Part shown: positions 7,652 to 10,334 of the stretch, one piece after another
Position numbering within the stretch: position 1 is the stretch's first letter
Layout of the letters: the number at the start of each line of letters is the position of its first letter
Made by a program: the position numbers and the translations under genes
Origin: Nitrososphaerota archaeon
GTDB lineage: Archaea; Thermoproteota; Nitrososphaeria; Nitrososphaerales; Nitrososphaeraceae
NCBI GenBank assembly: GCA_005877075.1
Contig: VBPX01000035.1
Coordinates: 29,832 to 64,745 of the forward strand
Direction: 5' to 3'
DNA: 34,914 nucleotides
The notes under the pieces: model-generated
What the model was told of the DNA's origin: nothing
The model's input: the letters and a program-made list of their open reading frames with translations, nothing else
Databases searched by the model: none

Positions 7652-9139
7652 TCATAGAGCTTGTGACTTTCTTATGTGACTAATTGCATTTGTTAGGTTT
7701 TCTTTTGCGGTATCAATTTCATTTTTCATTTCTTTCACATTATTCAAATACTTTTTCAGTATATTTCGGTATTTTTTTATGTATTTGATCTGTTCCTTAG
7801 GATTTGGAGAGCCCTCAGATCTACGTGTCGATATAGATCGTTGTATATCAATTTCATTGACTACACGAATTAATTTATCAGGAGCCATGCTTATTTTCAT
7901 TTTATCTAAAATTTCTTTTATTTCCATGATGTTCAATTGGTTTAATGATGTGTTGTTCTTCCTCATTGACTTGCTAACCAGCGCTCCCACTAATTTGTGA
8001 GCAGTCCTAAAAGGTAACTTATGTTTCAGAACCAATAATTCAGCAATATCTAATGATACTGCATAACCAATGTTTGATGCTTTGAGCATGGCCTCTTTTT
8101 TTACTTCAAGAGAGTCAATAATATTCCTCATCATTACTAATGATGACGATACTATTTCAATGGAATTCCAAAAGGGAATCTTGATATCCTGTAAATCTCT
8201 GCTGTAACCAGATGGTAATGATTTCAGGATTGTCATAATACTTGTCAAATTTCCGATTACGATGGCAGCTTTTGATCTCATTAATTCTAGCGGATCTGTA
8301 TTTTTTTTCTGTGGCATTGCACTAGATGAAGAAGCATGTTTATCATTAATTTCTATGAACCCAAATTCTTGAGAAGACCAAATTATCAAGTCTTCAGCAA
8401 TTCTACTTAGTGTTATCATTATTGAAGATATATCTGAAGTAAATTCAATCATAAAGTCTCTTGAAGACGTTGCGTCAATTGTATTTGATACTATATTGCT
8501 AAAACCCAATAGTTTTGCAGTCTTCCTCCTATTAAGTGGAAAAATCGATCCGCCAATAGGACCAGCACCTAATGGCGATTCATTAATCCTTTCGTATAAT
8601 GAAAATAATCTGTCCATGTCTCTTATTAGGATTTCAGAGTACGATATCAAATAGTGAGCGAAGTTTCCTATCTGTGCTTGCTGCAAATGGGTATAAAGAG
8701 GCATTATTGAATCCAAATTCTCTTGCGACTTTTGTAATAGTAATCTAACTAAATTAATGACGTGAATGAAAATGTCAATTAAATCATCTCTTGCCTTAAT
8801 TCTGATGTCTGTTATTACCTGATCATTTCGGGACCTTCCAGTCTGAATTTTACCTCCAACATCCATTCCTATTTTTCGTATAAGATGTGTTTCAAGTGAC
8901 TCATGAATATCTTCAAAACCATCTCTTGCCAGATTTTCTGGATGTTTCAAGACACGATCTAATTCAGCTATGATACTTACAAGTTCATTCTGATTCAATA
9001 AACGAATCTCAGAAAGCATTATTACATGAGCTTTGGTGCATAAAATATCGTAATAGAGAATTTTATTATCTATATCGATTGATGAAAGGAAATTCAATGT
9101 GTGCCTATCTAGATCTGCTTTGTGTCTTGATCTATACAT
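7652..9139 (-). CDS. argH: Argininosuccinate lyase
   Basis: 495 residues of the fumarase/aspartase superfamily. Splits argininosuccinate to arginine and fumarate, the latter feeding the TCA genes also present in this window. GRSRND is at 101-106, the T-H pair at 150-151 precedes LQQAQ, and the signature loop SSSSAMPQKKNTDP is at about 270-283. That loop usually reads GSSxMPQKKNPD; here the Gly and the Pro are replaced by Ser and Thr, but the catalytic Ser and the KKN remain. The ATG at 9139 follows a CAATAAATAAGT TATA-like box. It converges on argF. Confidence 0.93.
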   Translation of the reverse strand: MYRSRHKADLDRHTLNFLSSIDIDNKILYYDILCTKAHVIMLSEIRLLNQNELVSIIAELDRVLKHPENLARDGFEDIHESLETHLIRKIGMDVGGKIQTGRSRNDQVITDIRIKARDDLIDIFIHVINLVRLLLQKSQENLDSIMPLYTHLQQAQIGNFAHYLISYSEILIRDMDRLFSLYERINESPLGAGPIGGSIFPLNRRKTAKLLGFSNIVSNTIDATSSRDFMIEFTSDISSIMITLSRIAEDLIIWSSQEFGFIEINDKHASSSSAMPQKKNTDPLELMRSKAAIVIGNLTSIMTILKSLPSGYSRDLQDIKIPFWNSIEIVSSSLVMMRNIIDSLEVKKEAMLKASNIGYAVSLDIAELLVLKHKLPFRTAHKLVGALVSKSMRKNNTSLNQLNIMEIKEILDKMKISMAPDKLIRVVNEIDIQRSISTRRSEGSPNPKEQIKYIKKYRNILKKYLNNVKEMKNEIDTAKENLTNAISHIRKSQAL

Positions 9140-9227: not shown

Positions 9228-9235
9228 GATTAAAT
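9228..9235. repeat. Left target-site duplication
   Basis: GATTAAAT directly abuts the left GGTTCTGT tip and is identical to 9974-9981. Confidence 0.88.
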
Positions 9236-9286
9236 GGTTCTGTCAACTTCTAGGGACATTTCTAACTGTAAACAGTCGGGACATAA
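9236..9286. repeat. Left terminal inverted repeat
   Basis: Pairs with 9922-9973. The outer 8 bp (GGTTCTGT) are identical, the next ~23 bp are imperfect with one 1-bp gap, and the inner core TGTAAACAGTCGGGACATAA (9267-9286) is perfect. Weak similarity continues inward for about 10 bp. Confidence 0.88.
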
Positions 9287-9605
9287 ATGATTCAGTTTTT
9301 TTTACCTTGACTTTCATATGTATTAGTAGTTTCTTAAATCCCCTAAATCGTTTTGGATTTGGCTTATCAGTATCTTTCGCATATTGGTCAAACATATCCC
9401 TTGCTTGTACTAATGTGTCTTCAAAGTAATTTTCTAGATTTTTATCTTTAATTTCACCTGTATTAATGAGAAATGCAAGCCATTCACAAGTATTAAAAAA
9501 CCTATTATCCCAATCGTCTAGTTTAAGTTTATTGTTGGGTTCTTTTACTAAATATGTAACCTCTTTTTGCATTTCCTTTAACTCTTTTAGAATGCTGTCT
9601 AGCAA
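9243..9605 (-). CDS. Cargo protein of the transposable element: helical/coiled-coil protein, unknown function
   Basis: 120 residues from TTG at 9605. The N-terminus is heptad-like (LDSILKELKEMQKEV), and the frame is open upstream, adding KLEQIK before the start. The middle (RFFNTCEWLAFLINTGEIKD) and the later basic part (RFRGFKKLLIHMKVKVKK) resemble small helical domains of the DUF4760 type, but that is only a weak impression. The last ~15 residues are encoded by the left inverted repeat, so the natural C-terminus may have been replaced when the element formed. The upstream frame at 9625-9732 encodes a membrane helix and may be the missing N-terminus, separated by a frameshift. Confidence 0.5.
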   Translation of the reverse strand: MLDSILKELKEMQKEVTYLVKEPNNKLKLDDWDNRFFNTCEWLAFLINTGEIKDKNLENYFEDTLVQARDMFDQYAKDTDKPNPKRFRGFKKLLIHMKVKVKKTESFMSRLFTVRNVPRS

Positions 9606-9624
9606 TTTGATTTGTTCCAGTTTC

Positions 9625-9732
9625 CTATTCCTTGTGTGTCTTTATCACGTAAACTATACTACCAACTGTAATAAGAGCAGCAAAAATTACAACATAATCA
9701 GACACTACATCAATGGATGGAAACTGGATCAA
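9625..9732 (-). CDS. Small single-TM protein inside the element (possible N-terminus of the 9243-9605 gene)
   Basis: 35 residues from TTG at 9732: a polar start, one hydrophobic segment (DYVVIFAALITVGSIVYV) and a short basic end (IKTHKE). The stop at 9625-9627 lies only 20 bp before the downstream coiled-coil start, whose frame is open back to about 9645. A single indel here would join them into one membrane-anchored coiled-coil protein of roughly 160 residues. It may also be a separate small membrane protein. Confidence 0.4.
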   Translation of the reverse strand: MIQFPSIDVVSDYVVIFAALITVGSIVYVIKTHKE

Positions 9733-9737
9733 ATGAA

Positions 9738-9876
9738 CTATTTTTTCTTTCCTGCCTTATCTCTCTTTTCATGTAAATCGCCAGAATGTCCACCGCTTTA
9801 TGATTTTCCTTTTAGGTTTTCCGTCATACAAATATTCTATATGAATTTCATGCAACTCAGGCTCTTGTTGTCCCAT
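9738..9876 (-). pseudogene. Short frameshifted cargo reading frame
   Basis: ATG at 9876 gives MGQQEPELHEIHIEYLYDGK and then KPKRKIIKR. In that frame a stop falls at 9769, after a Trp/Phe-rich tail. One base later the other frame reads GGHSGDLHEKRDKAGKKK and stops at 9738, which looks like a natural basic C-terminus. A 1-bp indel near 9795 would restore a 45-residue protein. No family recognised. Confidence 0.4.
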
Positions 9877-9921
9877 ACCTATTAGTATATAACTAATAGT
9901 ATGTGAGAAACTAATGAAGCA

Positions 9922-9973
9922 TTATGTCCCGACTGTTTACACCAACGAAATAACCCGATAACTTTACAGAACC
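9922..9973. repeat. Right terminal inverted repeat
   Basis: Inverse copy of 9236-9286, ending in ACAGAACC; contains the perfect core in inverse orientation at 9922-9941. Confidence 0.88.
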
Positions 9974-9981
9974 GATTAAAT
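9974..9981. repeat. Right target-site duplication
   Basis: GATTAAAT directly outside the right tip, identical to 9228-9235. Confidence 0.88.
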
Positions 9982-10016: not shown

Positions 10017-10334
10017 ATGAGCCAGGAGATCCAACAATTACGAAAGTCAATATTTGATGAACTCACAAAGATTGTAGACCCAGAAATAGGAGTTTCCATT
10101 ATGGAATTGGAACTAATTGATAAAGTAGATATAGATGAAGGAAAGGTAAAGATAGACTTGCACCTGACAAGTCCTTTTTGCCCTGCAATATTTGGTTTTA
10201 AAATCGCTCAAGATATTAGAGATAATGTCTACAAGATTCAGGGTGTTAAGGAATCAAAAGTAAATGTGAGCAATCACTTTATGGCTGATGCTATAAATAA
10301 ACAAGTAAATGAAAGCAAACTGCCCTCAAAATAA
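10017..10334 (+). CDS. MIP18 (DUF59) family protein, SufT-like Fe-S assembly factor
   Basis: 105 residues. DELTKIVDPEIGVSIMELEL is the conserved DPE motif of the MIP18/DUF59 fold. SPFCPAIFGFKIAQDI carries the single reactive Cys in the usual 'T/S-x-x-C-P' position, and VKESKVNVSNHF resembles the closing strand region. These proteins help insert Fe-S clusters (SufT, CIA2) or act in related steps such as PaaD. A cytosolic Fe-S role is plausible given the Fe-S-bearing SDH operon next door, but the two are convergent rather than co-transcribed. Length is normal for the single-domain form. Confidence 0.85.
   Translation: MSQEIQQLRKSIFDELTKIVDPEIGVSIMELELIDKVDIDEGKVKIDLHLTSPFCPAIFGFKIAQDIRDNVYKIQGVKESKVNVSNHFMADAINKQVNESKLPSK

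Follow-up and report, generated by a model that had tools for sequence, protein, structure and literature searches.

A candidate transposase-less, cargo-bearing derivative of an IS6-like transporter element in a Nitrososphaeraceae genome

Mobile insertion cassettes (MICs) consist of IS ends surrounding passenger genes; they contain no transposase and are moved in trans. The term is used for IS families other than IS6 (e.g. PMC4619425, PMC1196294). IS6 insertion sequences transpose replicatively, through cointegrates. Members of the IS6 family have a single IS6-type DDE transposase, GG tips with a CTGT motif and an 8-bp target duplication; their ends are single, generally perfect repeats of 15-20 bp, and most members are 700-890 bp long (Varani et al. 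2021, PMC7986276). The same source names a single passenger-carrying member, ISDsp3, under the heading of transporter IS (tIS), and two IS6-family MITEs of 227 and 336 bp that are devoid of ORFs. The IS-like transposons of thaumarchaea have one or two genes per IS, and passenger-carrying composite DNA transposons are stated not to have been detected in archaea (Krupovic et al. 2019, PMC6563490).

We analysed a 34.9-kb stretch of DNA from an archaeon of the family Nitrososphaeraceae (the window, 34,914 nucleotides). A 738-bp unit at positions 9236-9973 lies between two exact copies of the octamer GATTAAAT (9228-9235 and 9974-9981), both directly adjoined by inverted ends starting with GGTTCTGT, in exact agreement with the first-pass annotation. 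These ends share with the IS6 family the GG tips with the CTGT motif (GGTTCTGT) and the 8-bp target duplication. However, they are imperfect, bipartite and approximately 51 bp long, in contrast to the short single ends of that family. The left end (9236-9286, plus strand) contains site A, CTGTCAACTTCTAGGGACAT (9240-9259), and site B, CTGTAAACAGTCGGGACAT (9266-9284). The right end (9922-9973, minus strand) contains the corresponding sites CTGTAAAGTTATCGGGTTAT (9969-9950) and GTGTAAACAGTCGGGACAT (9942-9924). Each end is thus formed by two tandem sites of the form CTGTnAAC-n3-5-(C)GGGaCAT, putative binding sites of the transposase. The length of about 51 bp proposed earlier for the inverted repeats holds. 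The ends contain a perfectly inverted 20-nt core (9267-9286 and 9922-9941) and match at 80% over 59 bp (BLAST). A motif scan of the whole window recovered all four sites with 0-2 mismatches and no further site with two or fewer mismatches. An exact 8-bp direct repeat pair bordering inverted 24-mers with at most six mismatches occurs only here in the window, and no such pair was seen in 60 dinucleotide shuffles of it.

The unit is flanked by an argH-like gene (7652-9139, minus strand, 495 aa) and a MIP18-like gene (10017-10334, plus strand, 105 aa), both function names being those of the first-pass annotation. An empty GATTAAAT site had been predicted in the gap between these genes in relatives, and it was indeed found in the closest sister genome, G006, which is 98% identical to the window over the MIP18 gene. 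The G006 gap reads ...GAGATGATTAAATCAATAGTTATATAG..., uninterrupted and with one copy of GATTAAAT, and is 131 bp long, exactly the 877 bp of the window gap minus 746 bp (the element plus one duplication). The site is also empty in eight further congeners retaining both flanks (G001, G002, G003, G004, G005, G008, G009, G010), with gaps of 124-151 bp. In G011 the spacer on the MIP18 side aligns as empty, and the argH side was not found. Since G006 and the eight other congeners show the empty site, insertion is the derived condition. The same 738 bp at this locus in all relatives, named beforehand as a case against mobility, was not observed, nine congeners being empty. These data confirm that the unit is a real, recent insertion, which took place after the divergence from G006, a sister with 98% identity over the adjacent gene.

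No transposase was found inside. The ORFs of the unit gave no Pfam transposase match, and comparison of the unit with three transposases of its own and related genomes (tblastn) gave no match either, so that both the transposase-free interior claimed earlier and the absence of a hidden transposase frame are borne out by these searches. The three small leftward frames of the first-pass annotation do exist, but they are not three separate genes. The TM frame (9732-9625, minus strand) and the helical, "coiled-coil" frame (9605-9243, minus strand) together align end to end with intact proteins of 136-144 aa encoded in G001, G007, G030, G023 and G026, the alignment requiring one frameshift where the two meet. 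They constitute one cargo gene (9243-9732, minus strand), whose product would have one N-terminal TM segment and a helical cytosolic part. Since the two frames represent one frameshifted gene, the cargo is probably inactive. Programmed frameshifting, where a +1 shift would join both frames, was considered and rejected: the decayed homologue on contig C88 of the same genome and the cargo in G049 need a different shift, which makes decay more likely. The third frame, a small basic ORF starting with MGQQEPELHEIHIEYLYDGKPKRKIIKRW (9769-9876, minus strand), is possibly frameshifted too, at its 3' end. The cargo frame extends beyond the natural C-terminus into the left end and covers most of it, and its last approximately 13 residues are encoded there; a junction of this end with the 3' end of the gene would produce just such a layout.

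The cargo family is at most distantly related to DUF4760 (PF15956): the joined reading scores 17.6 bits and the intact G007 homologue 20.1, both below the Pfam cut-off of 25. The predicted structure of the 120-aa frame is all-helical (pLDDT 67), and a PDB fold search with it yielded no match better than E=0.8. A PADLOC search for a defence function of the cargo gave no match of note.

The nearest model for the ancestor of the unit is a relic in its own genome (L112, contig G000:C88, part of which reads as N). It consists of a truncated IS6-type transposase gene and then, convergent with it, a homologue of the cargo gene, a short ORF in the place corresponding to the small basic ORF of the unit, and one bipartite end. 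The order and orientation relative to this end are as in the window unit, and removal of the transposase side would produce the window layout. The relic transposase is truncated on the 5' side and has an in-frame TGA, and the cargo homologue is itself frameshifted. The latter matches the cargo family profile with E=3e-22 and groups with the window cargo protein in the tree with support 0.91, on long branches. Multiple copies with different 8-bp flanks had been named beforehand as support; no second copy of the 738-bp unit was found in this 95%-complete draft genome. No intact cognate transposase was found in the draft, and it may be unassembled or lost; contigs C29 and C11 encode distant transposases, at only 36% and 27% identity, and no inverted end pair was found around that of C29.

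Relatives within the same family and order do contain complete elements whose end architecture matches that of the unit. There are thirteen of them (L111, L114, L116, L117, L120, L121, L122, L125, L126, L127, L128, L136, L192), 2434-4110 bp long, each having an exact 8-bp duplication and encoding a related transposase of the IS6 type, which agrees with the IS6 resemblance noted at first for the ends and the duplication. The L111 transposase from G049 (L111:2186-3298, minus strand) was the one scanned against Pfam; it has the DDE domain of the IS6/IS240 type (PF13610, E=5.8e-16) shared with the IS6 family, and N-terminal SWIM and zinc-ribbon motifs below the Pfam cut-offs. The others were assigned by tblastn similarity to L111 (36-73% identity). 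The letters of the end motif vary among elements, but within one element the sites usually share them. A full IS with the same ends, as anticipated earlier, was found only in the sense of the bipartite architecture, since no full element has exactly the GGGACAT end of the window, the nearest being GGGTCAT in G049 and G046. A generic IS6-type end motif has about 50 matches in 101 genomes, compared to two for a reversed control.

The transposase of these relatives takes up approximately 1.1 kb (about 375 aa), and the remainder is cargo, with other ORFs present in all thirteen. At 2.4-4.1 kb they are longer than most IS6 members. The cargo changes from element to element. It includes small membrane proteins, a DUF2299 protein in L111 and a likely HNH nuclease, just below the cut-off, in L192; AbrB/MazE-like small proteins adjoin the transposase in several elements (PF04014 in L113). 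Homology of the window cargo to the cargos of L111, L113, L114, L116, L120, L121 and L182 was considered and was not supported by profile comparison. As IS6-type elements with a passenger gene, the full-length relatives fit the tIS description, whereas the window unit has lost its transposase; further, several cargo genes, differing among elements, are present in the archaeal relatives. They belong to an archaeal group in which IS elements are common, and they carry passengers, unlike the thaumarchaeal IS described before.

Taken together, the unit quite probably derives from an IS6-like transporter IS, as a cargo-bearing form of the MIC type that has no transposase and was moved in trans. The ancestor would have had the layout [end - transposase -> <- membrane-protein cargo - end]. 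An internal deletion would have taken out the transposase half and brought the left end up against the cargo gene at its 3' end. Next, larger cargo-carrying relatives would probably have supplied a transposase that recognised the paired CTGTnAAC...GGGaCAT sites in trans and inserted the unit between the argH and MIP18 genes, creating the 8-bp GATTAAAT duplication. The first-pass annotation suggested that the transposase had been replaced by other genes; it was more likely lost, because relatives carry such cargo beside the transposase. We infer both the origin by deletion and, as the unit is a single copy in its own genome, the mobility in trans. If the unit moved as 738 bp, it must have moved in trans, having no transposase inside. 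The insertion is recent, yet the unit already has no transposase and its cargo is frameshifted; this combination speaks for a unit that was defective before it moved.

One alternative, clearly the less likely though not a negligible one, is that the insertion was of a full IS6-like element, carrying both transposase and cargo, whose transposase half was then deleted in place, so that the 738-bp unit itself never moved. The outcome would be indistinguishable from that of movement in trans; the unit is a single copy in its genome, and the related C88 element is itself decayed. However, the insertion is recent, the sister with the 98% identical adjacent gene being empty, and the loss of the transposase, the precise joining of the left end and the frameshifts would all have had to occur quickly, with the ends and the duplication left intact. 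Another scenario, direct capture of a chromosomal DUF4760-like gene between two IS6-like ends, with no deletion from a cargo-carrying IS and with subsequent movement in trans, seems improbable. Indeed, other genomes hold intact homologues of the cargo, and no IS-type ends were detected around them. On the other hand, the same genome has, next to an IS6-type transposase, a homologue grouping with the window cargo, and a small ORF is found there in the corresponding place between cargo and end. Finally, the possibility of chance repeats in ordinary conserved intergenic DNA, or of a diverged transposase concealed inside, can be dismissed given the nine empty congeners, which refute it, the absence of chance occurrences in the shuffles and the lack of any transposase match.

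Further candidate transposase-free units were seen at three other loci. In G018 (L182:388-1283, contig C89), bipartite ends are 896 bp apart; there is no transposase, six of the eight duplication letters are kept, and the cargo is a 153-aa protein with a zinc-ribbon-like C-terminus. In G017 (L119:2865-3448, contig C31), an 87-aa ORF is enclosed by GGGACAT-type sites that face each other at a distance of about 0.6 kb; neither a transposase nor a clear duplication was found at this locus. In G093 (L173:3467-4156, contig C127), IS6-type ends at a distance of 690 bp enclose an open frame that by appearance is a putative TnpB fragment, and the duplication would be CCCCAACC if the right tip has lost one G. 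These three loci suggest that the transposase-free class recurs, the evidence being weaker than for the window unit.

Some stray sites were also observed. A 1354-bp segment between perfect long inverted ends adjoins another complete element in G029 (L125:2157-3510, contig C21); it contains no transposase and has no matching duplication, and is perhaps a nested or rearranged copy. The exact 18-mer of the inner site has two matches in GTDB contigs, one in a cyanobacterium, read as chance, and one in a Nitrososphaera MAG, where no complete element was found. In a Nitrososphaera sp. MAG, one TGTAAACAGTCGGGACATAA site (L170:1463-1482) stands alone where an ArsA/Get3-like ORF begins, and is perhaps the lone remnant of an end of this type. 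Two matches of the 18-mer in viral contigs are by appearance chance ones, and the unit had no match in phage records.

Compared with the described transposase-free systems, the window unit resembles the IS6-family MITEs in having both IS6 ends, no transposase and presumed movement in trans, but the MITEs have no intervening ORFs, whereas this unit has a passenger gene, albeit broken, homologous to proteins elsewhere. As in MICs, IS ends flank a passenger gene, here frameshifted, and no transposase is present; the target duplication and the empty site demonstrate insertion, either at 738 bp or of a longer form shortened later. The unit differs from MICs in its IS6-type ends, archaeal host and distantly DUF4760-like cargo. 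What is new is the transposase-less, cargo-bearing form, IS6-type mobile elements being already known.

The window specimen is a decayed single copy and of less interest than the family behind it. We see about an even chance that these archaea host a family of IS6-like transposons that carry cargo, have bipartite ends and encode a DDE transposase of the SWIM/zinc-ribbon kind; an AbrB/MazE-like protein would often be present, and the cargo would vary, with membrane proteins and a likely HNH nuclease among it. In this reading, transposase-free satellite cassettes moved in trans would accompany them: the 738-bp unit, the 896-bp unit of G018 and perhaps the 0.6-kb unit of G017. Since the ends contain paired repeat sites, recognition by the transposase is open to direct testing. 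If the family and its satellites are real, they would represent an unannotated route of gene capture in these archaea.
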